Assembly (NCBI GenBank): GCA_947650365.1
Contig: CANTAL010000026.1
Coordinates: 62,001 to 126,000 of the forward strand
Direction of reading: 5' to 3'
DNA length: 64,000 nucleotides
Source of the DNA: Chamaelirium japonicum
Lineage: Eukaryota; Streptophyta; Magnoliopsida; Liliales; Melanthiaceae
A program made the translations under genes and the position numbers. This document shows, in pieces, positions 1 through 64,000 of the stretch. A model generated the notes under the pieces. That model searched no databases. It was not told where the DNA came from and saw only the letters and a program-made list of their open reading frames with translations. Every line of letters begins with the position of its first letter. The first letter of the stretch is position 1.

Positions 1-1570
1 CTCGAATGTATCCATTCTAATTCATTCGTACGATCCATTCTTATTCATTCATACGATCCATTCTAATTCATTCGTCCGATCCATTCTAATTCATTCGCAC
101 GAATGTATCCATTCTAATTCATTCGTACAATCCATTCTAATTCATTCGCACGATCCATTCTAATTCATTCGTATGATCCATTCTAATTCATTCCTACGAT
201 CTATTCTAATTCATTCGCTCGAATGTATCCATTCTTATTCATTCGTACGATCCATTCAAATCCATTCGTACGATCCATTCTATTCCATTCGTACGATCCA
301 TTCTAATCCATTCGTATGATCCATTCTAATCCATTCATACGATCCATTCTAATCCATTCGTACGATCCATTCTAATTCATTCTCACAAATGTAACCTTTC
401 TAATTCATTTGTAGGATCCATTCTAATTCATTCATACGATCCATTCTAATCCATTCGTACGATCCATTCTAATCCATTCGTACGATCCATTCTAATTCAT
501 TCGTATGAATGTAACCATTCTAATTCATTCGTACGATCCATTCTAATTCATTTGCCGATCCATTCTAATTCATTCGCACGAATGTATCCATTCTAATCCA
601 TTCGTACGATCCATTCTAATCCATTCGTACGATCCATTCTAATCCATTCGTACGATCCATTCTAATTCGTTCATACGATCTATTCTAATTCATTCTCACG
701 AATGTAACCTTTCTAATTCATTTGTACGATCCATTCTAATTCATTTGTACGATCCATTCTAATTCATTCGTACGATCCATTCTAATCCATTCGTACGATC
801 CATTCTAATTCATTTGCATGATCCATTCTAATTCATTCCTATGATCCATTCTAATTCATTCGTACGATCCATTCTAATTCATTCGCACAAATGTATCCAT
901 TCTAATTCATTCGTACAATCCATTCTAATTCATTCGCACGATCCATTCTAATTCATTCGTACGAACCATTCTAATTCATACGTACGATCCATTCTAATTC
1001 ATTCGTACGAACCATTCTAATTCATTCGTACGATCTAATTCATTCATACGATCCATTCTAATTCATTCGCACGAATGTAATCATTCTAATTCATTCCTAC
1101 GATCTATTCTAATTCATTCGTTCGAATGTATCCATTCTAATTCATTCGTTCGATCCATTCTAATTCATTCGTACAATCCATTCAAATTCATTCGCATGAT
1201 CCATTCTAATTCATTCGTACGATCCATTCTAATTCATTCTCACGAATGTAACCTTTCTAATTCATTTGTATGATCCATTCTAATTCATTCGTACGATCCA
1301 TTATAATTCATTCGCACGAATCTGTTCTAATTCAGTCGTACGATTCATTCTAATTCATTCGCACGATCCATTCTAATTCATTTGCACGATCCATTCTAAT
1401 TCATTCCTATGATCCATTCTAATTCGTTCGTACGATCCATTCTAATTCATTCGCTTGAATGTATCCATTCTAATTCATTCGTACGATCCATTCTAATTCA
1501 TTCGTACGATCCATTCTAATTCATGCTCACGAATGTAACCTTTCTAATTCATTTGTACAATCCATTCTAA
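1..1570 (+). repeat. Satellite block 1
   Basis: The '+' run open at the window edge. It holds several CTCAC(A/G)AATGTAACCTTTC units, for example from about 381, 698 and 1236. It ends in the palindrome CTAATTAG (1567-1574), where the strand flips. Confidence 0.9.
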
Positions 1571-1916
1571 TTAGAAAGGTTACATTCGAGCGAATGAATT
1601 AGAATAGATCGTAGGAATGAATTAGAATGGATCATACGAATGAATTAGAATGGATCGTACGAATGAATTAGAATGGACTGTACGAATGAATTAGAATGGA
1701 TACATTAGTGCGAATGAATTAGAATGGATCATACGAGTGAATTAGAATGGATCGTACGAATGAATTAGAATGGATTGTGCGAATGAATTAGAATGGATCG
1801 TATGAATGAATAAGAATGGATCATACGAATGAATTAGAATGGATCGTGCGAATGAATTAGAATGAATCGTACGAATGCATTAGAATGGATCGTACGAATG
1901 AATTAGAATGAATCGT
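1571..1916 (-). repeat. Satellite block 2
   Basis: The '-' run between a CTAATTAG flip and a CGTACG flip (1914-1919). Its exit, with a GCATTAGAATGG unit shortly before GAATCGTACG, is repeated at 15101 and 44780. Confidence 0.9.
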
Positions 1917-4682
1917 ACGATCCATTATAATTCATTCGTCCGATCCATTCTAATTCATTCGCACGAATGTATCCATTCTAATTCATTCGTACAATCCATT
2001 CTAATTCATTCGCACGATCCATTCTAATTCATTCATATGATCCATTCTATTTCATTCCTACGATCTATTCTAATTCATTCGCTCGAATGTATCCATTCTA
2101 ATTCATTCGTACGACCCATTCTTCTTCATTCGTACGAACCATTCAAATTCATTCGCATGATCCATTCTAATTCATTCGTACGATCCATTCTAATTCATTC
2201 TCACGAATGTAACCTTTCTAATTCATTTGCATGATCCATTCTAATTCATTCGTACGATCCATTTTAATCCATTCGTACGATCCATTCTAATCCATTTGTA
2301 CGATCCATTCTAATCCATTCGTACGTTCCATTCTAATCCATTCGTACGATCCATTCTAATTCATTCGTACGATCTAATTCTAATCCATTCGTACGATCCA
2401 TTCTAATTCGCACAAATGTATCCATTTTAATTCATTCGTACGATCCATTCTAATTCATTCGCACGATCCATTCTAATTCATTCGTACGATCCATTCTAAT
2501 TCATTCGCATGAATATATCTATTCTAATTCATTCGTATGATCCATTCTAATTTATTCGCACGATCTATTCTAATTCATTCGTACCATTCATTCTAATTCA
2601 TTCGCAAGATCCATTCTAATTCATTCGTACGATCCATTCTAATTCATTCGCACAAATGTATCCATTCTAATTCATTCGTGCAATCCATTCTAATTCAATC
2701 GCACGAACGTATGCATTCTAGTTCATTCGTACGCTCCATTCTAATTCATTCGTACGCTCCATTCTTATTCATCGCACAAATGTATCCATTCTAATTCATT
2801 TGTACGATCTATTCTAATTCATTTGTACGATCCATTCTAATTCATTCGTACGATCCCTTCTAATTCATTCGCACAAATGTATCCATTCTAATTCATTCGT
2901 ACGATCCATTCTAATTCATTCGCACGATCCATTCTAATTTATTCGTACGATCCATTCTAATTCATTCGCACGATCCATTCTAATTCAAATGCATTCGTAC
3001 GATGCATTCGTATGATCCATTCTAATTCATTCGCACGATCCATTCTAATTCATTCACACAATCCATTCTAATTCATTCGTATGAATGTATCAATTCTAAT
3101 TCATTCGCACGATCCATTCTAATTCATTCGTACGAATGTATCCATTCTAATTCATTCGTTCGATCCATTCTAATTCATTTGTACGATCCATTCAAAAATT
3201 CATTCTCACAAATGTAACCTTTCTAATTCATTTGTACGATCCATTCTAATTCATTCATACGATCCTTTCTTATTCATTCGTACGATCCATTCAAATTCAT
3301 TCGCATGATCCATTCTAATTCATTCGTACGATCCATTCTAATTCATTCTCACGAATGTAACCTTTCTAATTCATTTGTATGATCCATTCTAATTCATTCG
3401 CACGATCTATTCTAATTCATTCGCACGATCCATTCTAATTCATTCGCCCGATCCATTCTAATTCATTCGCACGAATGTATCCATTCTAATTCATTCGTAC
3501 GATCCATTCAAATTCATTCGCACGATCCATTCTAATTCATTCGTATGATTCATTCTAATTCATTCGTACGATCCATTCTAATTCATTCGCACAAATGAAA
3601 CCATTCTAATTCATTCGTACGATCCATTCTAATTCATTCGTCCGATCCATTCTAATTCATTTGTACGATCCATTCTAATTCATTCGCACGAATGTATCCA
3701 TTCTAATTCATTCGTACGATCCATTCTAATTCATTCGTATGATCAATTCTAATTCATTCGCACGATCAATTCTAATTCATTCGTACGATCCATTCTAATT
3801 CATTCGCACGAATGTATCCATTCTAATTCATTCGTAAGATCCATTCTAATTCATTCGTACGATCCATTCTAATTCATTCGCACGAATGTATCCATTCTAA
3901 TTCATTAGCACGAATGTAACCATTCTAATTCATTCGCATGATCCATTCTAATTCATTCGTATGATCCATTCTAATCCATTCGTACGATCCCTTCTAATTC
4001 ATTCGCACGAATGTAACCATTCTAATTCATTCATATAATCCATTCTAATTCATTCGTACGATCCATTCTAATTCATTCGTATGATCCATTCTAATTCATT
4101 CGTACGATCCATTCTAATTCATTTGCATGAATGTATCCATTCTAATTTATTCGTACGATCCAGTCTAATTCATTCGTACGATCCATTCTAATTCATTCGC
4201 ACGAATATACCCATTCTAATTCATTCGTACGATCCATTCTAATTCATTCGTACGATCGATTCTAATTCATTCGCACGATCCATTCTAATTCATTCATACA
4301 ATCCATTCTAATTCATTTGTAGGATGCATTCTAATTTATTCGTTCAAATGTATCCATTTTAATTCATTCGTAAGATCCATTCTAATTCATTCGTACGATC
4401 CATTCTAATTCATTCGTTCGATCCATTCTAATTCATTGGTACGATCCATTCTAATTCATTCGCACAAATGTATCCATTTTAATTCATTCATACGATCCAT
4501 TCTAATTTATTCATACGATCGATTCTAATTCATTCGCACGATCCATTCTAATTCATTCGTACGATCCATTCTAATTCATTCGCACACAAATGTAACCTTT
4601 CTAATTCATTTGTACGATCCATTCTAATCCATTCGTACGATCCATTCTAATCCATTCGTACGATCCATTCTAATTCATTCGT
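1917..4682 (+). repeat. Satellite block 3
   Basis: The longest '+' run (2.77 kb). It opens with a copy of the 13-monomer phrase. The variant TACGCTCC, doubled around 2731-2760, recurs only near 46222. It exits at CATTCGTAGGAATG. Confidence 0.9.
1929..2236 (+). repeat. 13-monomer higher-order phrase, copy at 1.9 kb
   Basis: Order of unit endings: CGTCCG, CGCACGAATGTATCC, CGTACAATCC, CGCACG, (C)ATATG, CCTACGATCTATTC, CGCTCGAATGTATCC, CGTACG, CGTACG with CAAATTC, CGCATG, CGTACG, CTCACGAATGTAACCTTTC, TTTG(C)ATG. Ten 23-bp and three 28-bp units give about 314 bp. Confidence 0.85.
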
Positions 4683-5735
4683 AGGAATGAATTAGAATGG
4701 ATACATTCGTGCGAATGAATTACAATGGATACATACGAATGAATTAGAATGGATCGTACGAACGAATTAGAATGGATCGTATGAACGAATTAGAATGGAT
4801 CGTACGAATGAATTAGAATGGATAAATTCGAGCGAATGAATTAGAATGGATCGTACGAATGAATTAGAATGGATCATAGGAATGAATTAGAATGGATCGT
4901 GCAAATGAATTAGAATGGATACATTCGTGCGAATGAATTAGAATGGATCGTAGAAATAAATTAGAATGGATCGTACGAATGGATTAGAATGGATCGTACG
5001 AATGAATTAGAATGGATCGTACAAATGAATTAGAAAGGTTACATTTATGAGAATGAATTAGAATGGATCGTACGAATGAATTAGAATGGATCGTACGAAT
5101 GGATTAGAATGGATCGTACGAATGAATTAGAATGGATTCATTCGTGCGAATGAATTAGAATGGATTGTATGAATGAATTAGAATGGATCGTACGAATGAA
5201 TTAGAATGGTTACATTCATGCGAATGAATTAGAATGGATCGTACAAATGAATTAGAATGGATACATTCGAGCGAATGAATTAGAATAGATCGTACGAATG
5301 AATTAGAATGGATCGTACAAATGAATTAGAAAGGTTACATTTGTGAGAATGAGTTAGAATGGATCGTATGAATGAATTAGAATGGATTGCATGAATGAAT
5401 TAGAATGGATCATACGAATGAATTGGAATGGATCGTATGAATGAATTAGAATGGATACATTCATGCAAATGAATTAGAATGGATCATACGAATGAATTAG
5501 AATGGATCATACGAACGAATTAGAATGGATCGTGTGAATGAATTAGAATGGATCGTACGAATGAATTAGAATGGATCATACAAATGAATTAGAAAGGTTA
5601 CATTCGTGAGAATGAATTAGAATAGATCGTACGAATGAATTAGAATGGATCGTACAAATGAATTAGAATGGATACATTCGAGCGAATGAATTAGAATGGA
5701 TCGTACGAATGAATTAGAATGGATACATTCATGTG
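4683..5735 (-). repeat. Satellite block 4
   Basis: The '-' run, with its counterpart in the right-hand copy at 52372-53497. It exits in the 6-bp palindrome GTGCAC at 5733-5738. Confidence 0.88.
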
Positions 5736-5766
5736 CACAAAGGTATCCATTCTAATTCATTTGCAC
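5736..5766 (+). repeat. Satellite block 5, one-monomer flip
   Basis: A single '+' monomer (CACAAAGGTATCC...) sits between '-' runs. The identical micro-inversion is at 53498-53528, so it predates the large duplication. Confidence 0.88.
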
Positions 5767-6410
5767 AATTAGAATGGATCACGCGAATGAATTAGAATGG
5801 ATCGTACGAATGAATTAGAATGGATACATTCGAGCGAATGAATTAGAATGGATCGTGCGAATGAATTAGAATGGATCGTACGAATGGATTAGAATGGATC
5901 GTACGAATAAATTAGAATGGATCATACAAATGAATTAGATTGGTTACATTCGTGAGAATGAATTAGAATGGATCGTACGAATGAATTAGAATGGATCCTC
6001 CGAATGAATTAGAATGGTTATATTTGTGCAAATGAATTAGAATGTATCATGCGAATGAATTAGAATGGATCGTACGAATGAATTAGAATAGTTACATTCG
6101 TGCGAATGAATTAGAATGGATCGTACGAATGAATTAGAATGGATCGTACAAATGAATTAGAATGGATCGTACGAATGATTTAGAATGGATAAACTCCAGC
6201 GAATGAATTAGAATTGATCATACGAATGAATTAGAATGGATTGTACGAATGAATTAGAATGGATCGCTCGAATGGATCCATTCTAATTAGAATGGATCAT
6301 ACGAATGAATTAGAATGGATCGTACAAATGAATTAGAATGGATTGTGCGAATGAATTAGAATGGATCCATTCTAATTAGAATGGATCGTACGAATGAATT
6401 AGAATGGATT
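5767..6410 (-). repeat. Satellite block 6 with two 10-bp flips
   Basis: The '-' run. At 6277-6286 and 6366-6375 the strand flips for about 10 bp between GGATCC and CTAATTAG, producing 24-bp perfect palindromes (6275-6298 and 6364-6387). Confidence 0.88.
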
Positions 6411-8604
6411 CATTCGTACGATCCATTCAAATTCATTGACATGATCCATTCTAATTCATTCGCATGAATGTATCCATTCTAATTCATTTGCACGATCCAT
6501 TCTAATTCATTCCTATGATCCATTCTAATTCATTCGTACGATCCTTTCTAATTAGAATGGATCCATTCGAGCGATCCATTCTTATTCATTCGTACGATCC
6601 ATTCTAATTCATTCATATGATCAATTCTAATTCATTCGCACGATCGATTCTAATTCATTCGTACGATCCATTCTAATCCATTCGTACGATCCATTCTAAC
6701 CCATTCGTACGATCCATTCTAATTCATTCGCACGAATGTAACCATTCTAATTCATTCATACGATCCATTCTAATTCATTCCTACGATCCATTCTAATTCA
6801 TTCGTATGATCAATTCTAATTCATTCACACGATCCATTCTAATTCATTCGTACGATCCATTCTAATTCATTCGCACGAATGTAACCATTCTAATTCATTC
6901 GTACGATCCATTCTAATTCATTCGCATAATACATTTTAATTCATTCGCACAAATGTAACCATTCTAATTCATTCGGTGGATCCATTCTAATTTATTCGTA
7001 CGATCCATTCTAATTCATTCTCACGAATGTAACCTTTCTAATTCATTTGTATGATCCATTCTAATTCATTCGTATGATCCATTCTAATCCATTCGTACGA
7101 TTCATTCTAATTCATTCGTACGATCCATTCTAATCCATTCGCACGATCCATTCTAATCCATTCGTACGATCCATTCTAATTCATTCGTACGATTCATTCT
7201 AATTCATTCGCACGATCCATTCTAATTCATTCGTACGATCCATTCTAATTCATTCGCTCGAATGTATCCATTCTAATTCATTCGTACGATCCATTCTAAT
7301 TCATTCGTACGATCCATTCTAATCCATTCGTACGATCCATTCTAATTCATTCGTACAATGCGTTCTAATCCATTCGTACGATCCATTCATATTCATTCGT
7401 ACGATCCAATCTAATTTATTTGTACGATCCATTCTAATTCATTCGTACGATCCATTCTAATTCATTCGTACGATCCATTCTAATTCATTCTAATTTATTC
7501 GCTCGAATGTATCCATTCTAATTCATTCGTACGATCCATTCTTATTCATTCATACGATCCATTCTAATTCATTCGCACGATACATTCTAATCCATTCGTA
7601 CGATCCATTATAATTCATTCGTACGATCCATTCTAATTCATTCGTATGATCCATTCTAATTCATTCGTATGAGCTATTCTAATTCATTCGTACGATCCAT
7701 TCTAATTCATTCGTATGATCCATTGTAATTCATTCATAAAATCCATTCAGATTCATTCGCACAAATGTATCCATTCAAATTCATTTGTACGATCCATTCT
7801 AATTAATTCGCACGATCCATTCTAATTCAGTCGTATCAATGTATCCATTTTAATTCATTCGTACGATCCATTCTAATTCACTCGTACGATCTAATTCATT
7901 CGTACGATCCATTCTAATTCATTCGTACGATCAATTCTAATTAGAATGGATCGATCGATTCTAATTCATTCGCGCGATCAATTCTAATTCATTCATACAA
8001 TCCATTCAGATTCATTCGCACAAATGTATCCATTCAAATTCATTCGTACGATCCATTCTAATTCATTCGTATGATCCATTCTAATTCATTCATACGATCC
8101 ATTCCATTCGCACGATCCATTGTAATTCATTCGCATGATCCATACTAATTCATTCGTACGATCCATTCTAATTCATTCGTATGATTCATTCTAATTCATT
8201 CTTACGATCTATTCTAATTCATTCGCTCGAATGTATCCATTCTAATTCATTCGTTCGATCCATTCTAATTCATCGTACGATCCATTCAAATTCATTCGCA
8301 TGATCCATTCTAATTCATTCGTACGATCCATTCTAATTCATTTTCACGAATGTAACCTTTCTAATTCATTTGTATGATCCATTCTAATTCATTCGTACGA
8401 TCCATTCCAATCCATTCGTACGATCCATTCTAATCCATAAGTACGATCCATTCTAGTCCATTCGTACGATCCATTCTAATTCATTCGTATGATCCATTCT
8501 AATTCATTCTCACAAATGTAACCTTTCTAATTCATTTGTACGATCCATTCTAATTCATTCGTACGATCCATTCTAATTCATTCGCACGATCCATTCAAAT
8601 TCGA
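6411..8604 (+). repeat. Satellite block 7 with two micro-flips
   Basis: The '+' run with short '-' stretches at 6552-6561 (CTAATTAG to GGATCC) and 7941-7954 (CTAATTAG to ATCGATCGAT). It contains a CGGTGGATCC variant near 6974 and an ACAATGCGTTC variant near 7350. It exits at CGATCG (8602-8607). Confidence 0.87.
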
Positions 8605-9796
8605 TCGTACGAATGAATTAGAATGGATCATAGGAATGAATTAGAATGGATCGTGCAAATGAATTAGAATGGATACATTCGTGCGAATGAATTAGAATGG
8701 ATCATAGGAATGAATTAGAATGGATCGTACGAATGAATTAGAATGGTTACATTCGTACGAATGAATTAGAATGGATCGGACGAATGAATTAGAATGGATC
8801 GTACGAATGAATTAGAATGGTTACATTCGTACGAATGAATTAGAATGGATCATGCAAATGAATTAGAATGGATACATTCGTGCGAATGAATTAGAATGGA
8901 TCGTGCGAATGAATTAGAATGGATCGTACGAATGAATTAGAATGGATACATTCATGCGAAGGAATTAGAATGGATCGTACGAATGAATTAGAATGGATCG
9001 TACGAATGAATTAGAATGGATTGTGCGAATGAAATAGAATGGATACATTCGTGGGAATGAATTAGAATGGAATGTAAGAATGAATTAGAATGGATCGTAC
9101 TAATGAATTAGAATGGATCCATTCGTACAAATGAATTAGAATGGATCGTACGAATGAATTAGAATAGATCGTACGAATGGATTAGAACGCATTGTACGAA
9201 TGAATTAGAATGGATCGTGCGAATGAATTAGAATGGATCGTACGAATGAATTAGAATGGATCATACAAATGAATTAGAATGGATACATTCATGAGAATGA
9301 ATTAGAATGGATCGTAGGAATGAATTAGAATGGATCGTACGAATGAATTAGAATGGTTACATTTGTGCGAATGAATTAGAATGGATCGTACGAATGGATT
9401 AGAATGGATCGAACGAATGGATTAGAATGGATCGTACGAATGAATTAGAATGGATTGTGCGAATGAATTAGAATGGATACATTCGTGCGAATGAATTAGA
9501 ATGGAATGTAAGAATGAATTAGAATGGATCGTACTAATGAATTAGAATGGATCCATTCGTACAAATGGATTAGAATGGATCGTACGAATGAATTAGAATG
9601 GATCGTAGAATGAATTAGAATGGATCATGCGAATGAATTAAAATGGATCGTACAAATGAATTAGAATGGATCGTGCGAATGAATTAGAATGGATCGTACG
9701 AATGAATTAGAATCGATACATTTGTGTGAATGAATTAGATTGCATCGTACGAATGAATTTGAATGGATTGTACGAATGAATTTGAATGGATATATT
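8605..9796 (-). repeat. Satellite block 8
   Basis: The '-' run. The phrase GGATCCATTCGTACAAATG, a flip of about 9 bp, occurs twice (about 9117 and 9550). It exits at TATATTTGAATGTATCC, a junction also present at 31875 and 57532. Confidence 0.87.
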
Positions 9797-10767
9797 TGAA
9801 TGTATCCATTCTAATTCGTTCGTACGATTCATTCATTCGTATGGGCTATTCTAATTCATTCGTACGATCCATTCTAATCCATTCGTACGATCCATTCTAA
9901 TTCATTCGTACAATGCGTTCTAATCCATTCGTACGATCCATTCTAATTCATTCGTACGATCCATTCTAATTCATTTGTACGAAAGGATCCATTCTAATTC
10001 ATTAGTACGATCCATTCTAATTCATTCTTACATTCCATTCTAATTCATTCGCACGAGTGTATCCATTCTAATTCATTCGCACAATCCATTCTAATTCATT
10101 CATACGATCCATTCTAATCCATTCGTACGATCCATTCTAATCCATTCGTACAATCCATTCTAATTCATTCGCACGAATGTAACCAATCTAATTCATTCGT
10201 ACGATCCATTCTAATTCATTCATATGATCCATTCTAATTCATTCGCACGAATGTATCCATTCTAATTCATTTGTATGATCTATTCTAATTCATTCGTATG
10301 ATCCATTCTAATTCATTCGCACGATCCATTCTAATTCGTTCATATAATCCATTCTAATTCATTCGTACGATCCATTCTAATTCATTTGCATGAATGTATC
10401 CATTCTAATTCATTCGTACGATCCATTCCAATTCATTCGTATGATCCATTCTAATTCATTCATGCAATCCATTCTAATCCATTCGTACGATCCATTCTAA
10501 TTCATTCGCACAAATGTATCTATTCTAATTCATTCGTACAATCCATTCTAATTCATTCGTACGATCCATTCTAATTCATTCGCACGATCCATTCTAATTC
10601 TTTCATATGATCCATTCTAATTCATTCGCACGAATGTATCCATTCTAATTCATTCGCACGAATGTATCCATTCTAATCCATTCGTACGATCCATTCTAAT
10701 CCATTCGTACGATCCATTCTAATCCATTCGTACGATCGATTCTAATTCATTCATACGATCCATTCGT
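9797..10767 (+). repeat. Satellite block 9
   Basis: The '+' run opening with an odd truncated pair (CGATTCATTCATTCG) and GGGCTATTC. It exits at the palindrome CATTCGTACGAATG (10761-10774). It lacks about 0.3-0.4 kb present in the other copies near 58.2-58.5 kb and 32.5-32.8 kb. Confidence 0.87.
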
Positions 10768-10860
10768 ACGAATGAATTAGAATGGATCAAGCGAATGAAT
10801 TTGAATGGATCGTACGAATGAATAAGAATGGATCGTACGAATGAATTAGAATGGATCGTA
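10768..10860 (-). repeat. Satellite block 10
   Basis: A four-monomer '-' run between two '+' runs. Its counterpart is at 58883-59009. Confidence 0.87.
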
Positions 10861-11500
10861 CGAATGTATCCATTCCAATTCATTCGTACGATCCATTCTA
10901 ATTCGTACGAATGGATCCATTCTAATCCATTCGTACGATCCATTCTAATCCATTCTAATTCATTCACTCGAATGTATCCATTCTAATTCATTCGTATGAT
11001 CCATTCTTATTCATTCATACGATCCATTTTAATTCATTCGCACGATCCATTCTAAATCATTCACACAATCCATTCTAATTCATTCGCACAATCCATTCTA
11101 ATTCATTCGCACGAATGTATCCATTCTAATTCATTCGTACGATCCATTCTAATTCATTCGTACGATCCATTCTAATTCACTCGCACAAATGTATCCATTC
11201 TAATTCATTCGTACGATCTATTCTAATTCATTCGCACGATCCATTCTAATTCATTCGTACGATCCATTCTAGTCCATTCATACGATCCATTCTAACTCAT
11301 TCTCACAAATGTATCCATTCTAATTCATTCGTACGATCTATTATAATTCATTCGCTCGAATGTATCCATTCTAATTCATTCGTTCGATCCATTCTAATTC
11401 ATTCGTACGATCCATTCAAATTCATTCGTATGGTCCATTCTAATTGATTCGCTCGATCCATTCTAATTCATTCGTACGATCCATTCTAATTCATTCGCTC
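10861..11500 (+). repeat. Satellite block 11
   Basis: The '+' run with a 9-bp flip at 10907-10915 between TTCGTACGAA and GGATCC. It exits at CGCTCGAATGG, where the first half of a 28-bp unit joins a '-' monomer; the same join is at 59565. Confidence 0.87.
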
Positions 11501-13120
11501 GAATGGATCGTACAAATGAATTAGAATGGATCGGACGAATTAGAATGGATCATGTGAATGAATTAGAATGGATCGTATGAATGAATTAGAATGGATCGTG
11601 CGAATGAATTAGAATGGATCGTACGAATGAATTAGAATGGATTCGTACGAATGAATTAGAATGGATCGTACGAATGAATTAGAATGGTTACATTCGTACG
11701 AATGAATTAGAATGGATCGTACGAATGAATTAGAATGGATCGTGCGAATGAATTAGAATTGATCATACGAATGAATTAGAATGGATCGTACGAATGGATT
11801 AGAACGCATTGTACGAATGAATTAGAATAGATACATTTGTAAGAATGAATTAGATTGCATCGTATGAATGAATTTGAATGGATTGTACGAATGAATTAGA
11901 ATGGATCGTACGAATGAATTAGCATGGATCATGCGAATGAATTAGAATAGATCGTACGAATGAATTAGAATGGATCGTACGAATAAATTAGAATGGATCG
12001 TGCGAATGAATAAGAATGGATCGTACGAATGAATTAGAATGGATCCACCAAATGAGTTAGAATGGATCATGCGAATGAATTAGAATGGATCGTACGAATG
12101 AATTAGAATGGATACATTCGTGCGAATGAATTAGAATGGTTCAGACGAATGAATTAGAATTGATCGTGCGAATGAATTAGAATGGATCATACGATTGAAT
12201 TTGAATGGATCGTACGAATAAATTAGAATGGATACATTTGTGTGATGAATAAGAATGGAGCGTACGAATGAATTACAATGGAGCGTACGAATGAACTAGA
12301 ATGGATACATTCGTGCGAATGAATTAGAATGGATCTTATGAAAGAATTAGAATGGATCGTGCGAATGAATTAGAAAGGATCGTACGAATGAATTAGAATG
12401 GATATATTCGTGCGAATGAATTAGAATGGATCGTACGAATGAATTTGACTGGATCGTACGAATAAATTAGAATGGATACATTCATGCAAATGAATTAGAA
12501 TGGATCGTGCGAATGAATTAGAATCGATATTACGAATGAATTAGAATGGATCGTAAGAATGAATTAGATAGTACGAATGAATTAGAATGGATCGTGCGAA
12601 TGAATTAGAATTGATCATACGAATGAATTAGAATGAATCGTGCGAATGAATTAGAATGGATCGTACGAATGCATTAGAATGGATACATTCGTGCGAATGA
12701 ATTAGAATGGATCATACGAATGAATTAGAATGGATACATTTGTGTGAATGAATTTGAATGGATTGCACGAATTGAATTAGAATGGATCGTACGAATGGAT
12801 TAGAATGGATCATACGAATGAATTAGAATGGATCATACAAATGAATTAGAAAGGTTACATTCGTGAGAATGAATTCGAATGGATCATGCGAATGAATTAG
12901 AATTGATCATACGAATGGATTAGAATGGATCGTACGAATGAATTAGAATAGATCGTGTGAATGAATTAGAATGGATCGTACAAACGAATTAGAATGGATC
13001 GTACGAACGAATTAGAATGGATCGTATGAACGAATTAGAATAGATCGTACGAATGAATTAGAATGGATACATTCGAGCAAATGAATTAGAATGGATCGTA
13101 CGAACGAATTAGAATGGATC
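11501..13120 (-). repeat. Satellite block 12
   Basis: The '-' run containing the AACGCATTG variant (about 11808) and GGATCCACCGAATG (about 12050). It exits by a blunt join GGATC/TAATTCATTC, again shared with the right-hand copy (61716). Confidence 0.87.
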
Positions 13121-49965: not shown

Positions 49966-49981
49966 AGGGCGAGCTCGCCCT
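49966..49981. repeat. 16-bp perfect palindrome in LTR
   Basis: AGGGCGAGCTCGCCCT reads the same on both strands and shares the GGCGAGCTC core of the nearby 22-bp minisatellite, so it may be an inverted relic of that repeat. Confidence 0.85.
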
Positions 49982-50283: not shown

Positions 50284-50390
50284 TTTGCCTAGGGCCCCTT
50301 CAGCCCAATGTTGATCTCGCTCCCTGTCAAGATGATTTGGTGAGCACGGTGGGGGGCGAACTCCTGGGCGAGTTTCAGCTACCCCCAACA

Positions 50391-50395
50391 TGATC
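50391..50395. repeat. Target-site duplication, right copy
   Basis: TGATC directly after the terminal CA of the LTR, followed by CATTCTAATTC, the expected continuation of the interrupted monomer. A 5-bp duplication is typical of LTR-retrotransposon integrase. Confidence 0.93.
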
Positions 50396-51062
50396 CATTC
50401 TAATTCATTCATACGATCCATTCTAATCCATTCGTACGATCCATTCTAATCCATTCGTACGATCCATTCTAATTCATTCTCACAAATGTAACCTTTCTAA
50501 TTCATTTGTACGATCCATTCTAATCCATTCGTACGATCCATTCTAATCCATTCGTACGATCCATTCTAATCCATTCGTACGATCCATTCTAATTCATTCG
50601 CACGAATGTATCCATTCTAATTCATTCGTACGATCCATTCTAATTCATTCCTACGATCCATTCAAATTCATTCGCACGAATGTATCCATTCTAATTCATT
50701 TGCACGATCCATTTCTAATTCATTCGCACGATCTATTCTAATTCATTTGTACGATCCATTCTAATTCATTCGTACTCTAATTCATTCGCACGATCCATTC
50801 TAATTCATTCATACGATCCATTCTAATTCATTCGTATGATCCATTCTAATTTATTCGTTCAAATATATCCATTCTAATTCATTCGTACGATCGATTCTAA
50901 TTCATTCGCACGATCCATTCTAATTCATTCGTACGATCCATTCTAATTCATTCGTCTGATCAATTCTAATTCATTCGCACGATCCATTCTAATTCATTTG
51001 TACGATCTATTCTAATTCATTCGTACGATCTATTCTAATTCATTCGTACGATCCATTCTAAA
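50391..51062 (+). repeat. Satellite block 54, after LTR
   Basis: The '+' run continuing block 53. From about 50.73 kb it matches 42.51 kb onward. It exits at CTAAAATGAGTTAG as block 41 does. Confidence 0.9.
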
Positions 51063-52090
51063 ATGAGTTAGAATGGATCATACGAATGAATTAGAATGGA
51101 TCGTACGAATGAATTAGAATGGATTGTGTGAATGAATTAGAATGGATCGTATGAATGAATAAGAATGGATCGTACGAATGAATTAGAATGGATCGTGCGA
51201 ATGAATTTGAATCGATCGTACGAATGAATTAGAATGGATAGTATGAATGAATAAGAATGGATACATTCGTGCGAATGAATTAGAATGGATCGTGGGAAAG
51301 AATTAGAATGGATCGTACGAATGAATTAGAATGGTTACATTCGTGCGAATGAATTAGAATGGATCGTACGTAGGAATGAATTAGAATGGATCGTACGAAT
51401 GAATTAGAATGGATCGTACGAATGGATTAGAATGGATCGTGCGAATGAATTAGAATGGATCGTATGAATAAATTAGAATGGATCGTACGAATGAATTAAA
51501 ATGGATACATTTGTGCGAATGAATTAGAATGGATCACACGATCTAATTAGAATGGATCGTACGAATGAATTAGAATGGATCGTATGAATGAATAAGAATG
51601 GATCGTAATGAATTAGAATGGATCGTGCGAATGAATTAGAATGGATACATTCGTGCGAATGGATTAGATTGGATCGTACGAATGAATTTAAATGCATTCC
51701 AATTCATTCGTATGATCTAATTCTAATTCATTCGTACGATCCATTCTAATTCATTCGTACGATCCATTGTAATTCATTCGCATGATCCATTCTAATTCAT
51801 TCGTCTGATCCATTCTAATTCATTCGCACGATCCATTCTAATTCATTCATACGATCCATTCTAATTTATTCGCACGAATGTATCCATTCTAATGCATTTG
51901 TACGATTCATTCTAATTCATTCGCACGATCCATTCTAATTCATTCGTATGATCTATTCTAATTCATTCGCACGAATGTAACCATTCTAATTCATTCGTAC
52001 GTTCCATTCTAATTCATTCGTATGATTCATTCTAATTCATTCACACGATCCATTCTAATTCATTCGTACGATCCATTCTTATTCATTCAT
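50725..52090. repeat. 8.2-kb-spaced duplication, second copy
   Basis: Partner of 42.51-43.87 kb. It begins about 335 bp after the solo LTR. No LTR trace is seen at the equivalent place near 42.2 kb, where similarity has already ended. Confidence 0.88.
51063..51694 (-). repeat. Satellite block 55
   Basis: The '-' run paired with block 42. It exits at ATGCAT (51692-51697). Confidence 0.88.
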
Positions 52091-52371
52091 ACGATCCATT
52101 CTAATTCATTTGTATCCATTCTAATTCATACGATCCATTCTAATTCACTCGCACAAATGTATCCATTTTAATTCATTCGTACGATCCATTCTAATTTATT
52201 CATACGATCCCTTTTAATTCATTCGCACGATCCATTCTAATTCATTCGTACGATCCATTCTAATTCATTCGCACACAAATGTAACCTTTCTAATTCATTT
52301 GTACGATCCATTCTAATTCATTCGTACGATCCATTCTAATCCATTCGTACGATCCATTCTAATTCATTCAT
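51695..52371 (+). repeat. Satellite block 56
   Basis: The '+' run in which one duplication pair (with 43.48-43.87 kb) gives way near 52.09-52.14 kb to the large one (with 4.43 kb onward). The joining stretch has a truncated TTTGTATCC monomer. Confidence 0.87.
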
Positions 52372-53497
52372 AGGAATGAATTAGAATGGATACATTCGTG
52401 CGAATGAATTACAATGGATACATACGAATGAATTAGAATGGATCGTACGAACATATTAGAATGGATCGTATGAACGAATTAGAATGGATCGTACGAATGA
52501 ATTAGAATGGATACATTCGAGCGAATGAATTAGAATGGATCGTACGAATGAATAATAATGTATCATAGGAATGAATTAGAATGGATCGTGCAAATGAATT
52601 AGAATGGATACATTCGTGCGAATGAATTAGAATGGATCGTAGGAATGAATTAGAATGGATCGTACGAATGGATTTGAATGGATCGTACGAATGAATTAGA
52701 ATGGATCGTACAAATGAATTAGAAAGGTTACATTTGTGAGAATGAATTAGAATGGATCGTACGAATTAATTAGAATGGATCGTACGAATGGATTAGAATG
52801 GATCGTACGAATGAATTAGAATGGATACATTCGTGCGAATGAATTAGAATGGACTGTATGAATGAATTAGAATGGATCGTACGAATGAATTAGAATGGTT
52901 ACATTCGTGTGATGAATTAGAATGGATCGTACGAATGAATTAGAATGGATACATTCGAGCGAATGAATTAGAATAGATCGTACGAATGAATTATAATGGA
53001 TCGTACAAATGAATTAGAAAGGTTACATTTGTGAGAATGAGTTAGAATGGATCGTATGAATGAATTAGAATGGATTGCATGAATGAATTAGAATGGATCA
53101 TACGAATGAATTGGAATGGATCGTAGGAATGAATTAGAATGGATACATTCATGCAAATGAATTAGAATGGATCGTACGAATGAATTAAAATGGATCATAC
53201 GAACGAATTAGAATGTATCGTGTGAATGAATTAGAATGGTTCGTACGAGTGAATTAGAATGGATCAGACAAATGAATTAGAAAGGTTACATTTGTGAGAA
53301 TGAATTAGAATGGATCGTACGAATGAATTAGAATGGATCATACAAATGAATTAGAAAGGTTACATTCGTGAGAATGAATTAGAATGGATCGTACGAATGA
53401 ATTAGAATGGATCGTACGAATGAATTAGAATGGATACATTCGAGCGAATGAATTAGAATGGATCGTACGAATGAATTAGAATGGATACATTCATGTG
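52372..53497 (-). repeat. Satellite block 57
   Basis: The '-' run paired with block 4. It exits at GTGCAC (53495-53500). Confidence 0.88.
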
Positions 53498-53528
53498 CAC
53501 AAAGGTATCCATTCTAATTCATTTGCAC
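53498..53528 (+). repeat. Satellite block 58, one-monomer flip
   Basis: The copy of the micro-inversion at 5736-5766. Confidence 0.88.
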
Positions 53529-54168
53529 AATTAGAATGGATCATGCGAATGAATTAGAATGGATCGTACGAATGAATTAGAATGGATACAATCGAGCGAA
53601 TGAATTAGAATGGATCGTGCGAATGAATTAGAATGGATCGTACGAATGAATTAGAATGGATCGTACGAATGGATTAGAATGGATCGTACGAATAAATTAG
53701 AATGGATCATACAAATGAATTAGAAAGGTTACATTCGTGAGAATGAATTAGAAATGGATCATACGAATGAATTAGAATGGATCCTCCGAATGAATTAGAA
53801 TGTATCATGCGAATGAATTAGAATGGATCGTACGAATGAATTAGAATGGTTACATTCGTGCGAATGAATTAGAATGGATCGTACGAATGAATTAGAATGG
53901 ATCGTACAAATGAATTAGAATGGATCGTACGAATGATTTAGAATGGATACATTCGAGCGAATGAATTAGAATTGATCATACGAATGAATTAGAATGGATT
54001 GTACGAATGAATTAGATTGGATCGCTCGAATGGATCCATTCTAATTAGAATGGATCATACGAATGAATTAGAATGGATCGTACAAATGAATTAGAATGGA
54101 TTGTGCGAATGAATTAGAATGGATCCATTCTAATTAGAATGGATCGTACGAATGAATTAGAATGGATT
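53529..54168 (-). repeat. Satellite block 59 with two 10-bp flips
   Basis: The '-' run paired with block 6. Its 10-bp flips at 54035-54044 and 54124-54133 are the counterparts of 6277-6286 and 6366-6375. Confidence 0.87.
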
Positions 54169-56320
54169 CATTCGTACGATCCATTCAAATTCATTGACAT
54201 GATCCATTCTAATTCATTCGCACGAATGTATCCATTCTAATTCATTTGCACGATCCATTCTAATTCATTCCTATGATCCATTCTAATTAATTCGTACGAT
54301 CCATTCTAATTAGAATGGATCCATTCGAGCGATCCATTCTTATTCATTCGTACGATCCATTCTAATTCATTTGTATGATCAATTCTAATTCATTCGCACG
54401 ATCGATTCTAATTCATTCGTACGATCCATTCTAATCCATTCGTACGATCCATTCTAAACCATTCGTACGATCCATTCTAATTCATTCGCACGAATGTAAC
54501 CATTCTAATTCATTCATACGATCCATTCTAATTCATTCCTACGATCCATTCTAATTAATTCGTATGATCAATTCTAATTCATTCACACGATCCATTCTAA
54601 TTCATTCGTACGATCCATTCTAATTCATTCGCATGAATGTAACCATTCTAATTCATTCGTACGATCCATTCTAATTCATTCGCATGATACATTTTAATTC
54701 ATTCGCACAAATGTAACCATTCTAATTCATTCGGTGGATCCATTCTAATTCATTCGTACGATCCATTCTAATTCATTCTCACGAATGTAACCTTTCTAAT
54801 TCATTTGTATGATCCATTCTAATTCATTCGTACGATCCATTCTAATCCATTCGTACGATCCATTTTAATTCATTCGTACGATCCATTCTAATCCATTCGC
54901 ACGATCCATTCTAATCCATTGTACGATCCATTCTAATTCATTCGTACGATCCATTCTAATTCATTCGCACGATCCATTCTAATTCATTCGTACGATCCAT
55001 TCTAATTCATTCGCTCGAATGTATCCATTCTAATTCATTTGTACGATCCATTCTAATTCATTCGTACGATCCATTCTAATCCATTCGTACGATCCATTCT
55101 AATTCATTCGTACAATGCGTTCTAATCCATTCATACGATCCATTCATATTCATTCGTACGATCCATTCTAATTCATTTGTACGATCCATTCTAATTCATT
55201 CGTACGATCCATTATAATTCATTCGTACGATCCATTCTAATTCATTCTAATTCATTCGCTCGAATGTATCCATTCTAATTCATTCGTACGATCCATTCTT
55301 ATTCATTCATACGATCCATTCTAATTCATTCGCACGATCCATTCTAATCCATTCGTACGATCCATTATAATTCATTCGTACGATCCATTCTAATTCATTC
55401 GTATGATCCATTCTAATTCATTCGTATGAGCTATTCTAATTCATTCATACGATCCATTCTAATTCATTCGTACGATCCATTGTAATTCATTCATACAATC
55501 CATTCAGATTCATTCGCACAAATGTATCCATTCAAATTCATTCGTACGATCCATTCTAATTAATTCGCACGATCAATTCTAATTCAGTCGTATGAATGTA
55601 TCCATTTTAATTCATTCGTACGATCCATTCTAATTCATTCGTACGATCAATTCTAATTAGAATGGATCGATCGATTCTAATTCATTCGCACGATCCATTC
55701 TAATTCATTCATACAATCCATTCAGATTCATTCGCACAAATGTATCCATTCAAATTCATTCGTACGATCCATTCTAATTCATTCGTATGATCCATTCTAA
55801 TTCATTCGTACGATCTATTCCATTCTCATAATCCATTCTAATTCATTCGCATGATCCATTCTAATTCATTCGTACGATCCATTCTAATTCATTCGTATGA
55901 TTCATTCTAATTCATTCCTACGATCTATTCTAATTCATTCGCTCGAATGTATCCATTCTAATTCATTCGTTCGATCCATTCTAATTCATCGTACGATCCA
56001 TTCAAATTCATTCGCATGATCCATTCTAATTTATTCATACGATCCATTCTAATTCATTCTCACGAATGTAACATTTCTAATTCATTTGTATGATCCATTC
56101 TAATTCATTCGTACGATCCATTCTAATCCATTTGTACGATCCATTTTAATCCATTCGTACGATCCATTCTAGTCCATTCGTACGATCCATTCTAATTCAT
56201 TCGTACGATCCATTCTAATTCATTTTCACAAATGTAACCTTTCTAATTCATTTGTACGATCCATTCTAATTCATTCGTACGATCCATTCTAATTCATTCG
56301 CACGATCCATTCTAATTCGA
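54169..56320 (+). repeat. Satellite block 60 with two micro-flips
   Basis: The '+' run paired with block 7, with flips at 54310-54319 and 55657-55670. It carries CGGTGGATCC near 54733 and ACAATGCGTTC near 55112. It exits at CGATCG. Confidence 0.87.
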
Positions 56321-57531
56321 TCGTACGAATGAATTATAATGGATCATAGGAATGAATTAGAATGGATCGTGCAAATGAATTAGAATGGATACATTCATGC
56401 GAATGAATTAGAATGGATCGTAGGAATGAATTAGAATGGATCGTACGAATGAATTAGAATGGTTACATTCGTACGAATGAATTTGGAATGGATCGGACGA
56501 ATGAATTAGAATGGATCGTACGAATGAATTAGAATGGATCATAGGAATGAATTAGAATGGATCGTGCAAATGAATTAGAATGGATACATTCGTGCGAATG
56601 AATTAGAATGGATCGTGCGAATGAATTAGAATGGATCATACGAATGAATTAGAACGGATACATTCATGCGAAGGAATTAGAATGGATCGTACGAATGGAT
56701 TAGAATGGATCGTACGAATGGATTAGAATGGATCGTACGAATATATTAGAATGGATTGTGCGAATAAAATAGAATGGATACATTCGTGCGAATGAATTAG
56801 AATGGAATGTAAGAATGAATTAGAATGGATCGTACTAATGAATTAGAATGGATCCATTCGTACAAATGAATTAGAATGGATCGTACGAATGAATTAGAAT
56901 AGATCGTACGAATGGATTAGTACGCATTGTACGAATGAATTAGAATGGATCGTGCGAATGAGTTAGAATGGATCGTACGAATGAATTAGAATGGATCATA
57001 CAAATGAATTAGAATGGATACATTCATGCGAATGAATTAGAATGGATCGTAGGAATGAATTAGAATGGATCGTACGAATGAATTAGAATGGTTACATTTG
57101 TGCGAATGAATTAGAATGGATCGTACGAATGGATTAGAATTGATCGAACGAATGGATTAGAATGGATCGTACGAATGAATTAGAATGGATTGTGCGAATG
57201 AATTAGAATGGATACATTCGTGCGAATGAATTAGAATGGAATGTAAGAATGAATTAGAATGGATCGTACTAATGAATTAGAATGGATCCATTCGTACAAA
57301 TGGATTAGAATGGATCGTACGAATGAATTAGAATGGATCGTAGAATGAATTAGAATGGATCATGCGAATGAATTAAAATGGATCGTACAAATGAATTAGA
57401 ATGGATCGTGCGAATGAATTAGAATGGATCGTACGAATGAATTAGAATCGATACATTTGTGTGAATGAATTAGATTGCATCGTACGAATGAATTTGAATT
57501 GATTGTACGAATGAATTTGAATGGATATATT
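56321..57531 (-). repeat. Satellite block 61
   Basis: The '-' run paired with block 8, including both GGATCCATTCGTACAAATG micro-flips (about 56856 and 57286). Confidence 0.87.
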
Positions 57532-58882
57532 TGAATGTATCCATTCTAATTCGTTCGTACGATTCATTCATTCGTATGAGCTATTCTAATTCATTCGTGC
57601 GATCCATTCTAATTCATTCGTACGATCCATTCTAATCTATTCGTACGATCCATTCTAATTCATTCGTACAATGCGTTCTAATCCATTCGTACGATCCATT
57701 CTAATTCATTCGTACGATCCATTCTAATTCATTTATACGAAAGGATCCATTCTAATTCATTAGTACGATCCATTCTAATTCATTCTTACATTCCATTCTA
57801 ATTCGTTCGCACGAATGTATCCATTCTAATTCATTCGCACAATCCATTCTAATTCATTCGTACGATGCATTCTAATCCATTCGAACGATCCACTCTAATC
57901 CATTCGTACGATCCATTCTAATTCATTCGCACGAATGTAACCAATCTAATTCATTCGTACGATCCATTCTAATTCATTCATACGATCCATTCTAATTCAT
58001 TCGCATGAATGTATCCATTCTAATTCATTTGTATGATCCATTCTAATTCATTCGTACGATCCATTCTAATTCATTCGCATGATCCATTCTAATATGTTCG
58101 TATAATCCATTCTAATTCATTCGTACGATCCATTCTAATTCATTTGCATGAAGGTATCCATTCTAATTCATTCGTATGATCCATTCTAATTCATTCATGC
58201 AATCCATTCTAATTCATTCATACGATCCATTCTAACTCATTCTCACAAATGTAACCTTTCTAATTCATTTGTACGATCTATTCTAATTCACTCGTACGAT
58301 CTATTCTAATTCATTCGCTCGAATGTATCCATTCTAATTCATTCGTACGATCCATTCTAATTCATTCGCACGAATGTAACCTTTCTAATTTATTCGTCCG
58401 ATCCATTCTAATTCATTCATACAATCCATTCTAATTCATTCGCACGAATGTATCCATTATAATTCATTCGTACGATCCATTCTAATCCATTCGTACGATC
58501 TATTCTAATTCATTCGCACAAATGTATCTATTCTAATTCATTCGTACAATCCATTCTAATTCATTCGTACGATCCATTCTAATTCATTCGCACGATCCAT
58601 TCGAATTCTTTCATATGATCCATTCTAATTCATTCGCACGAATGTATCCATTCTAATTCATTCGCACGAATGTATCCATTCTAATCCATTCGTACGATCC
58701 ATTCTAATCCATTCGTACGATCCATTCTAATCCATTCGTACGATCGATTTTAATTCATTCATACGATCCATTCTAATTCATTCGTATGATCAATTCTAAT
58801 TCATTTGCATGATCCATTCTAATTCATTCGTACGATCCATTCTAATTCATTCGCACGAATGTATCCATTCTAATTGATTCGT
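57532..58882 (+). repeat. Satellite block 62
   Basis: The '+' run paired with block 9 but longer by about 0.4 kb. The extra stretch matches 32.52-32.83 kb in the third copy, so copy A probably lost it. Confidence 0.87.
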
Positions 58883-59009
58883 ACAAATGAATTAGAAATG
58901 AATAAGAATGGATCGTACGAATGAATTAGAATGGATCATGTGAATGAATTTGAATGGATCGTACAAATGAATAAGAATGGATCGTACGAATGAATTAGAA
59001 TGGATCGTA
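58883..59009 (-). repeat. Satellite block 63
   Basis: A short '-' run paired with block 10. It is entered at CGTACAAATG. Confidence 0.86.
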
Positions 59010-59565
59010 CGAATGTATCCATTCCAATTCATTCGTACGATCCATTCTAATTTGTACGAATGGATCCATTCTAATCCATTCGTACGATCCATTCTAATTC
59101 ATTCGCTCGAATGTATCCAATCTAATTCATTCGTACGATCCATTCTTATTCATTCATACGATCCATTTTAATTCATTCGCACGATCCATTCTAAATCATT
59201 CGCACAATCCGTTCTAATTCATTCGCACAATCCATTCTAATTCATTCGCACGAATGTATCCATTCTAATTCATTCGTACGATCCATTCTAATTCATTCGC
59301 ACGATCCATTCTAATTCATTCGTACGATCCATTCTAGTCCATTCATACGATCCATTCGAACTCATTCTCACAAATGTATCCATTCTAATTCATTCGTACG
59401 ATCTATTCTAATTCATTCGCTCGAATGTATCCATTCTAATTCATTCGTTCGATCCATTCTAATTCATTCGTACGATCCATTCAAATTCATTCGCATGATC
59501 CATTCTAATTCATTCGCTCGATCCATTCTAATTCATTCGTACGATCCATTCTAATTCATTCGCTC
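59010..59565 (+). repeat. Satellite block 64
   Basis: The '+' run paired with block 11, with a 9-bp flip at 59056-59064. It exits at CGCTCGAATGG. Confidence 0.87.
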
Positions 59566-61716
59566 GAATGGATCGTACAAATGAATTAGAATGGATCGGA
59601 CGAATTAGAATGGATCATGCGAATGAATTAGAATGAATCGTACGAATGAATTAGAATGGATCGTGCGAATGAATTAGAATGGATCGTACGAATGAATTAG
59701 AATGGATTCGTACGAATGAATTAGAATGGATCGTACGAATGAATTAGAATGGATCGTACGAATGAATTAGAATGGTTACATTCGTGCGAATGAATTAGAA
59801 TGGATCGTACGAATTAATTAGAATGGATCGTGCGAATGAATTAGAATTGATCATACGAATGAATTAGAATGGATCGTACGAATGGATTAGAACGCATTGT
59901 ACGAATGAATTAGAATAGATACATTTGTGCGAATGAATTAGATTGCATCGTATGAATGAATTTGAATGGATTGTACGAATGAATTAGAATGGATCGTACG
60001 AATGAATTAGCATGGATCATGCGAATGAATTAGAATAGATCGTACGAATGAATTAGAATGGATCGTACGAATAAATTAGAATGGATCGTGCGAATGAATA
60101 AGAATGGATCGTACGAATGAATTACAATGGATCCACCGAATGAGTTAGAATGGATCATGCGAATGAATTAGAATGGATCGTACGAATGAATTAGAATGGA
60201 TACATTCGTGCGAATGAATTAGAATGGTTCGGACGAATGAATTAGAATTGATCGTGCGAATGAATTAGAATGGATCATACGATTGAATTTGAATGGATCG
60301 TACGAATAAATTAGAATGGATACATTTGTGTGATGAATAAGAATGGAGCGTACGAATGAATTACAATGGAGCGTACGAATGAACTAGAATGGATACATTC
60401 GTGCGAATGAATTAGAATGGATCATGCGAATGAATTAGAATGGATCGAGCGAATGAATTAGAATGGATCATGCAAATGAATTTGAATGGATCGTACAAAT
60501 GAATTAGAATGGATCGAACGAATGAATTAGAATGGATACATTCGAGCGAATGAATTAGAATAGATCGTACGAATGAATTAGAATGGATACATTTGTGAGA
60601 ATGAGTTAGAATGGATCGTATGAATGAATTAGAATGGATCGTGCGAATGAATTAGAATGGATTGTACGAATGAATTAGAATGGATACATTTGTGCGAGTG
60701 AATTAGAATGGATCGTACGAATGAATTAGAATGGATCGTACGAATGAATTAGAATGGATACATTCGTGCGAATGAATTAGAATGGATTGTGCGAATGAAT
60801 TAGAACGGATTGTGCGAATGATTTAGAATGGATCGTGCGAATGAATTAAAATGGATCGTATGAATGAATAAGAATGGATCGTACGAATGAATTAGAATGG
60901 ATACATTCGAGCGAATGAATTAGAATGGATCGTACGAATGGATTAGAATGGATCGTGTGAATGAATTAGAAAGGATCGTACGAATGAATTAGAATGGATA
61001 TATTCGTGCGAATGAATTAGAATGGATCGTACGAATGAATTAGACTGGATCGTACGAAAAAATTAGAATGGATGCATTCATGCAAATGAATTAGAATGGA
61101 TCGTGCGAATGAATTAGAATCGATCGTACGAATGAATTAGAATGGATCGTAAGAATGAATTAGATCGTACGAATGAATTAGAATGGATCGTGCGAATGAA
61201 TTAGAATTGATCATACGAATGAATTAGAATGGATCGTGCGAATGAATTAGAATGGATCGTACGAATGCATTAGAATAGATACATTCGTGCGAATGAATTA
61301 GAATGGATCATACGAATGAATTAGAATGGATACATTTGTGCAAATGAATTTGAATGGATTGCACGAATTGAATTAGAATGGATCGTACGAATGGATTAGA
61401 ATGGATCGTACGAATGAATTAGAATGAATCATACAAATGAATTAAAAAGGTTACATTCGTGAGAATGAATTCGAATGGATCTTGCGAATGAATTAGAATT
61501 GATCATACGAATGAATTAGAATGGATCGTACGAATGAATTAGAATAGATCGTGTGAATGAATTAGAATGGATCGTACGAACGAATTAGAATGGATCGTAC
61601 GAACGAATTAGAATGGATCGTATGAACGAATTAGAAGAGATCGTACGAATGAAATAGAATGGATACATTCGAGCGAATGAATTAGAATGGATCGTACGAA
61701 CGAATTAGAATGGATC
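59566..61716 (-). repeat. Satellite block 65
   Basis: The '-' run paired with block 12. An extra stretch of about 0.45 kb (about 60.42-60.95 kb) is absent from copy A. It exits by GGATC/TAATTCATTC. Confidence 0.87.
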
Positions 61717-64000
61717 TAATTCATTCGCACGATCCATTCTAATTCATTCGTACGATCCATTCTAATTCATTCGCTTGAATGTAATCATTCTAATTCATTC
61801 GTACGATCCATTCTAATTCATTCCTATGATCCATTCTAATTCATTCTCACGAATGTAACATTTCTAATTAATTTGTATATATCCATTATAATTCATTCGT
61901 ACAATCTATTCTAATTCATTCGCACAATCCATTCTACTTTATTCCTACGTACGATCCATTCTAATTCATTCGTACGATCCATTCTAATTCATTCGCACGA
62001 ATGTATCCATTCTAATGCATTCGTACGATCCATTCTAATTCATTCGCACGATGCATTCATTCATTCGCATGATCCATTCTAATTCATTCGCACGATCCAT
62101 TCTAATTCATTCGCTCGAATGTGTCCATTCTAATTCATTCGCACGAATGTATCCATTCTAATTCATTCGTACGATCCATTCTAATTCATTCGTATGATCC
62201 ATTCTAATTCATTCGCACGAATGTAACCATTCTAATTCATTCGTATGGTCCATTCTAATTCATTCCTATGATCCATTCTAATTCATTCCTACGATCTATT
62301 CTAATTCATTCGTACGATCCATTCTAATGCATTCGTACGATTCATTCTAATTCATTCACACAATCTATTCTAATTCATTCGTACGATCCGTTCTAATTCA
62401 TTCCTACAATCCATTCTAATTCATTCGCACGAATGTATCCATTCTAATTCATTCGTACGATCCATTCTAATTCATTCGTACGATTCATTCTAATCCATTC
62501 GTACGGTCCATTCTAATTCATTCGCACGAATGTAACCATTCTAATTCATTCGTACGATCCATTCTAATTCATTCCTACGATCCATTCTAATTCATTCGCA
62601 CGAATGTATCCTTTCTAATTCATTTGCACGATCCATTCTAATTCATTCGTATGATCCATTCTAATTCATTCGTACGATCCATTCTAATTCATTCGTACGA
62701 TCCATTCTAATCCATTCGTGCGATCCATTCTAATTCATTCCTACGATCCATTCTAATTCATTCTCACAAATGTAACCTTTCTAATTCATTTGTACGATCC
62801 ATTCTAATTTATTCATACGATCCATTCTAATTCATTCGCACGATCCATTCTAATTCATTCGTACGATCCATTCTAATTCATTCGCACAATCCATTCTTAT
62901 TCATTCGTACGATCCATTCTAATTCATTCGTATGATCCATTCTAACTCATTCGGTGGATCCATTCTAATTCATTCGTACGATCCATTCTAATTCATTCGC
63001 ACGATCCATTCTAACTAATTCGCACGATCCATTCTTATTCATTCATACGATCCATTCTAATTCATTCGCACAATCCATTCTAATTCATTCGTACTATCCA
63101 TTCTAATTCATTCGTATGATCCATTCTAACTCATTCGGTGGATCCATTCTAATTCATTCGTACGATCCATTATAATTCATTCGCACGAATGCATCCATTC
63201 TAATTTATTCGTACGATCCATTCTAATTCATTCGTACGATCTATTCTAATTCATTCGCACGAATGTAACCATTCTAATTCATTCGTACGATTCATTCTAA
63301 TTCATTCGTATGAGCTATTCTAATTCATTCATACAATCCATTCTAATTCATTCGTACGATCCATTGTAATTCATTCGTACGATCCATTCTAATTCATTCG
63401 CACGATCCATTCTAATTCATTTGCACGATCCATTCTAAATCATTCCTATGATCCATTCTAATTCATTCGTACGATCCATTCTAATTCATTCGTACGATGC
63501 ATTCTAATCCATTCGTACGATCCATTCTAATTCATTCGTACGATCCATTCTAATTCATTCTCACAAATGTAACCTTTCTAATTCATTTGTACGATCCATT
63601 CTAATTCATTCGTACGATCCATTCTAATCCATTCGTACAATCCATTCTAATCCATTCGTACGATCCATTCTAATTCATTCGCACGAATGTAACCATTCTA
63701 ATTCATTTGTACGATCCATTCTAATTCATTCCTACGATCCATTCTAATTCATTCGTACGAATGTATCCATTCTAATTCATTTGCACGATTCATTCTAATT
63801 CATTTCTATGATCCATTCTAATTCATTCTTACGATCCATTCTAATTTATTCGTTCGAATGTATCCATTCTAATTCATTCGTACGATCCATTCTAATTTGT
63901 TCGTACGATCCATTCTAATTCGTTCGTACGATCCATTCTAATTCATTCGCACGATCCATTCTAATTCATTCGCACGATCCATTCTAATTCATTTGTACGA
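61717..64000 (+). repeat. Satellite block 66
   Basis: The '+' run to the window end. It pairs with 13.12-13.98 kb until about 62.59 kb. Then 62.78-63.16 kb pairs with 15.50-15.90 kb, including both CGGTGGATCC variants. Confidence 0.88.

Follow-up and report, generated by a model that had tools for sequence, protein, structure and literature searches.

What is the short tandem repeat that fills a 64-kb stretch of the genome of Chamaelirium japonicum almost without interruption, and how did its blocks come to face in opposite directions? The stretch (contig CANTAL010000026.1, here C38, positions 62001-126000; hereafter the window, numbered 1 to 64,000) consists of interleaved monomers of 23 and 28 bp. 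With high confidence it can be assigned to the already published centromere satellite Chio1 (23 bp) plus Chio2 (28 bp) of Chionographis japonica, the species that is listed as Chamaelirium japonicum in NCBI taxonomy. This satellite underlies one of the strangest holocentromeres known, yet it has already been published. A modest new lead comes from the points at which the array changes direction: these orientation switches favour the register of an 8-bp palindrome, TCGTACGA, as a partial preference, with most switches lacking it.

Monomers and identity of the satellite

The window was tiled by a hidden Markov model (HMM) composed of 23- and 28-bp models in two orientations and a background state. 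By this tiling, 63,045 of the 64,000 bases are satellite, with an identity to consensus of 94.0%. Complete monomers number 2,514, comprising 2,026 of the 23-type (1,072 +, 954 -) and 488 of the 28-type (260 +, 228 -). Exactly 23 bp are found in 1,969 monomers, which give the consensus ATCCATTCTAATTCATTCGTACG (mean identity 0.937), and exactly 28 bp in 444 monomers, which give ATCCATTCTAATTCATTCGCACGAATGT (identity 0.942). Forward and reverse satellite amount to 33,283 bp and 29,762 bp, respectively, and alternate in 82 blocks with a median length of 641 bp and a maximum of 3,354 bp. An earlier note on this DNA had described 23- and 28-bp monomers interleaved in both orientations over at least 63 kb, with head-to-head joins, and the tiling bears this out: 29 forward-to-reverse and 29 reverse-to-forward joins are present among the 58 junctions counted, a count that, like all junction counts below, omits 12 of the 82 blocks (shorter than 50 bp) with their junctions. 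The same note had extended the satellite over the whole window, which holds for the tiled bases and fails at a single 954-bp element, the only interruption of the satellite within the 64 kb (Table 1).

The spacing of the 28-mers is non-random. Among 440 gaps between successive 28-mers, those with zero, one, two, three and four intervening 23-mers number 24, 32, 102, 64 and 99, against a geometric expectation of 85, 69, 56, 45 and 36, with two, three or four 23-mers being favoured. The array matches itself with peaks at lags of 23, 46, 97, 120 and 74.

According to the published description, Chio1 equals Chio2 minus 5 bp with one substitution, Chio1 has three dyads and Chio2 four, a conserved 8-bp dyad pairs adjacent monomers, and the orientations are mixed (PMC10264360). 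Every statement on Chio1 and Chio2 that was compared matched the window monomers, save the four dyads in the 28-mer. Once AATGT is taken out of the 28-mer, it differs from the 23-mer at exactly one position, matching the published relation; among 20,000 shuffled pairs of monomers, none came equally close. The 23-mer contains three perfect dyads, namely TCGTACGA (8 bp, the longest), GATC and AATT, and the hairpin of two monomers formed via TCGTACGA has an energy of -5.1 kcal/mol (z -4.4), which none of 200 shuffles reached. Moreover, the 9-mer TTCGTACGA of the Chio monomer, which is printed in PMC12722358 and is common to the Chama satellite, occurs 464 times on one strand of the window and 420 times on the other, and in none of 20,000 shuffled monomers.

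The genome that carries the window points in the same direction. The assembly comprises 1,518,659,071 bases in 3,253 contigs, 7.5 Mb off the published C. japonica primary assembly of 1,526,137,861 bp with 12 chromosome scaffolds (PMC10264360). Among the contigs compared, sizes drop from 137 Mb (C1), 88 Mb (C6) and 69.9 Mb (C12) to just 3.9 Mb for C13, the pattern expected from 12 chromosomes. A printed peptide of C. japonica CENH3 is matched at 23 of 23 residues in an open frame of this genome. One SANTA-domain match in the genome (37.7 bits at a cut-off of 21, covering 51 of 92 model positions) is consistent with KNL2, which has been reported in C. japonica and as lost from Chamaelirium luteum (PMC12722358). 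Taken together, the leading identification of the earlier note as the C. japonica satellite is supported by the monomer lengths, the 5-bp deletion with one substitution, the dyads, TTCGTACGA and the CENH3 peptide.

Three observations weigh against this identification. An 8-bp palindrome by itself is not rare, being present in 1,720 of 20,000 shuffled 23-mers. By our own dyad criterion the 28-mer has three dyads (two gapped, one perfect) instead of the four published. Finally, the printed C. japonica NDC80 peptide is matched at only 17 of 20 residues at its sole match in the genome, so that a closely related source, another NDC80 locus or allelic variation may lie behind it.

The NDC80 mismatch and the 7.5-Mb difference in assembly length also speak for an array from another Chionographis species carrying the same satellite, which is nevertheless improbable in view of the overall size and chromosome-scale contigs, both in keeping with the published assembly, and of the complete match to the CENH3 peptide, since that peptide lies in the N-terminal tail. 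In plants this tail of CENH3 is fast-evolving. Far less probable is the Chama satellite of the macro-monocentric sister Chamaelirium luteum, with which the window has TTCGTACGA in common. The monomer length of Chama, 60 bp, rules it out given the window periods of 23, 46, 74, 97 and 120; moreover, Chama arrays are consistently oriented and free of interspersed retrotransposons, in contrast to the short alternating blocks and the solo long terminal repeat (LTR) of the window, and KNL2 is reported lost in C. luteum, whereas the window's genome contains the SANTA-domain match (PMC12722358). Contamination with human HSat2/3-like, CATTC-rich satellite DNA can practically be dismissed, for although CATTC words are plentiful in the monomers, CATTCCATTC occurs just five times per strand, and megabase-scale runs of the array sit in chromosome-scale contigs of the genome that encodes the printed CENH3 peptide.

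Exact monomer words had no match in the genome_contigs and viral_contigs collections. A CENP-B box was considered and rejected: its core TTCGNNNNANNCGGG with zero or one mismatch is absent from both strands of the window, and sites at two mismatches number 26 and 28 on the two strands.

Distribution of the array and centromere role

The published holocentromere consists of megabase Chio arrays that carry CENH3 nucleosomes, several per chromosome, and that align as one holocentromere; the units recur at an average interval of 9.97 Mb, make up about 17% of the genome and number 7-11 per chromosome (PMC10264360). For comparison, C12 was sampled at each megabase from 1 to 69 Mb in 69 samples (7 of 10 kb and 62 of 250 bp), leaving out the 57 Mb position and covering the 35 Mb position in part only. 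Satellite is present in 12 of the 69 samples (17%), with a k-mer cover of 0.29 to 0.92; the three samples at 54-56 Mb, with a cover of 0.04, were not counted as satellite. The positive samples form five runs, at 12-15, 25, 36-38, 47 and 66-68 Mb, which lie about 10-20 Mb apart, so that both the share of satellite and the spacing of the runs in C12 are near the published values. In C1, satellite was found in 2 of 12 sampled places.

C38, the contig of the window, measures 2.03 Mb. Here 20 of 25 samples contain satellite, all of them between the start and 1.6 Mb, whereas none of the five samples from 1.7 Mb onward does. This places the window within an array that extends over at least some 1.6 Mb. 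The best explanation is that the window comes from inside a single centromere unit of holocentric C. japonica, with CENH3 binding and holocentromere function taken from PMC10264360. What stands against this explanation is the count of units: five runs in C12 compare with 7-11 published units per chromosome, though sampling at 1-Mb steps can miss smaller units.

The share of 28-mers was 34 of about 430 monomers in an array of C12 and 84 of about 416 in an array of C6. Centromere units may differ in their mix of Chio variants.

Orientation switches and their register

For each switch, the register K was defined as the phase at which the two orientations meet, K=16 being the register of TCGTACGA. 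The phase was taken from the nearest 18-base core on either side of the junction, and the 58 window junctions were grouped into 34 clusters, which represent distinct switches. In 20,000 simulations of random joins each K is found in about 1 in 23. In the window, K=16 accounts for 23 of 58 switches and for 11 of the 34 clusters (p 1.2e-7 by a binomial test, uncorrected, with 23 registers examined); any common ancestry of the clusters would inflate this p value and those given below for clusters. K=15 is found in one of the 34 clusters. Five extra stretches of 10 kb were analysed with the 18-base-core method unchanged, two from C1 (one with 6.3 kb of satellite), two from C12 and one from C6, the latter having been picked for its match to the window. 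There, K=16 accounts for 17 of 59 switches and for 5 of the 28 clusters that are absent from the window (p 0.0066), followed by K=10 with 8 of 59 switches and by K=1, the register of GATC, with 7 of 59.

At some switches the two orientations also share a word. A shared word of at least 6 bp is present at 19 of 117 junctions and in 7 of 62 clusters, compared with 5 of 500 simulated joins, and the word lengths of clusters and null differ (Mann-Whitney p 0.007). The word at the break is TCGTACGA 13 times and GATC four times.

Several results limit this picture. In the window, 35 of 58 switches lie outside the dyad register, and its second register, K=6 (6 of 34 clusters), does not recur in the 28 clusters found outside it. 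Of the 62 cluster representatives, 31 have 0 bp in common at the break. A test of palindrome arms at the junctions was not significant (p 0.077), and the register test was used instead. An earlier phase method, moreover, found K=16 in 6 of the 34 clusters and K=15 in 9; it was replaced after this first result, since, judged by eye, many of its K=15 assignments were shifted by a single base owing to a mismatch at the break.

The register preference suggests strand switching guided by microhomology or by a hairpin. During repair or replication, a growing strand would leave its template for the opposite strand at TCGTACGA, a self-complementary word found every 23 bp in Chio1, and such switching probably accounts for part of the flips; segmental duplication would afterwards copy the flipped blocks. 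In the window, most of a segment of roughly 9-10 kb is repeated 47.7-48.6 kb further on as a direct duplication whose switch junctions match (Table 1), which indicates that some flips have been copied by segmental duplication. As the mechanism behind the flips we infer such switching tentatively, giving it somewhat less than an even chance. A similarly cautious reading applies to TCGTACGA as a main point of direction change, at which the hairpin word of adjacent monomers could also serve as the site of template switching or microhomology and in this way invert and amplify blocks of the centromere; such a role is plausible, if short of probable.

Alternatively, selection acting on the dyad or common ancestry of the junctions, instead of switching at this word, may underlie the register preference. 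This is a serious contender that likewise stays below the level of the probable. The fact that many junctions are copies, the 58 falling into 34 clusters, fits common ancestry, whereas the persistence of the preference after clustering, and its presence among the 28 clusters unseen in the window, argue against this alternative. That the flips are assembly or read chimeras instead of biology is highly unlikely. Although short tandem repeats are difficult to assemble, the same junctions are found in separate copies (for example 4683/52372, 8602/56318 and 11505/59570), C1, C6 and C12 also carry flips, mixed orientation has already been published (PMC10264360), and a preference for one register is not expected of chimeras.

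If it operates, switching at TCGTACGA would explain the scrambled arrays of Chionographis and may help to explain the spread of centromere units along the chromosomes. The register preference ties the monomer sequence to a rearrangement mechanism, a lead that is testable on all 100 published units. In the passages of PMC10264360 that deal with rearrangement, gene conversion, inversions, extrachromosomal circular DNA (eccDNA) and microhomology-mediated gene conversion are treated, and switch register is not among their topics.

Other features and comparison with known systems

The 954-bp element begins with TGTTTGGGGG... at one end and finishes with ...CCCCCAACA at the other. With its TG...CA ends and flanking TGATC it is read as a solo LTR. 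Eight open reading frames of 68-111 amino acids overlap the LTR region, and a GC-rich 22-bp tandem repeat of about four copies lies inside the element (50189-50282). Besides the palindrome listed in Table 1, a second perfect palindrome (19997-20038, arm 21 bp) is situated on the dyad at a reverse-to-forward switch.

Table 1. Coordinates of the satellite and of the features embedded in it, in window positions.
Feature	Position	Strand	Basis
Chio1/Chio2-like satellite, alternating orientation blocks	1..49436	.	HMM tiling
Chio1/Chio2-like satellite, alternating orientation blocks, continued	50391..64000	.	HMM tiling
Direct duplication, first copy	4500..14000 (approximate; may begin near 4019)	.	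Shared 40-mers by diagonal, self-BLAST, switch pattern
Direct duplication, second copy	52200..62500 (approximate)	.	Shared 40-mers by diagonal, self-BLAST, switch pattern
Reverse-to-forward switch in the dyad register: 44-bp perfect palindrome, centre TCGT/ACGA	19237..19280	.	Junction 19254, arm 22
Element read as solo LTR, 954 bp, TG...CA ends, 5-bp duplication TGATC on each side	49437..50390	+ (nominal)	Ends, flanks; tiling background block 49437-50391

The proposed strand switching resembles origin-dependent inverted-repeat amplification (ODIRA), a process that acts at short inverted repeats. In ODIRA, too, opposite-strand template switching gives inverted copies; it differs in having been described for copy-number variants (PMC10766183). 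With the Chama satellite, the window shares TTCGTACGA and the richness in dyads, and it differs from the 60-bp monomer, the one consistent orientation and the lack of interspersed retrotransposons of the latter (PMC12722358).

The closest counterpart is Chio1/Chio2 of C. japonica (Kuo et al. 2023, PMC10264360). The two agree in monomer lengths, the 5-bp deletion with one substitution, the 8-bp dyad and its hairpin, as well as in mixed orientation, higher-order spacing, megabase-sized units and the CENH3 peptide, and the assembly sizes are similar. They differ in the three dyads that our own criterion yields for the 28-mer, compared with four in Chio2, and in the 3 of 20 residues by which the single NDC80 locus found departs from the printed C. 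japonica peptide.

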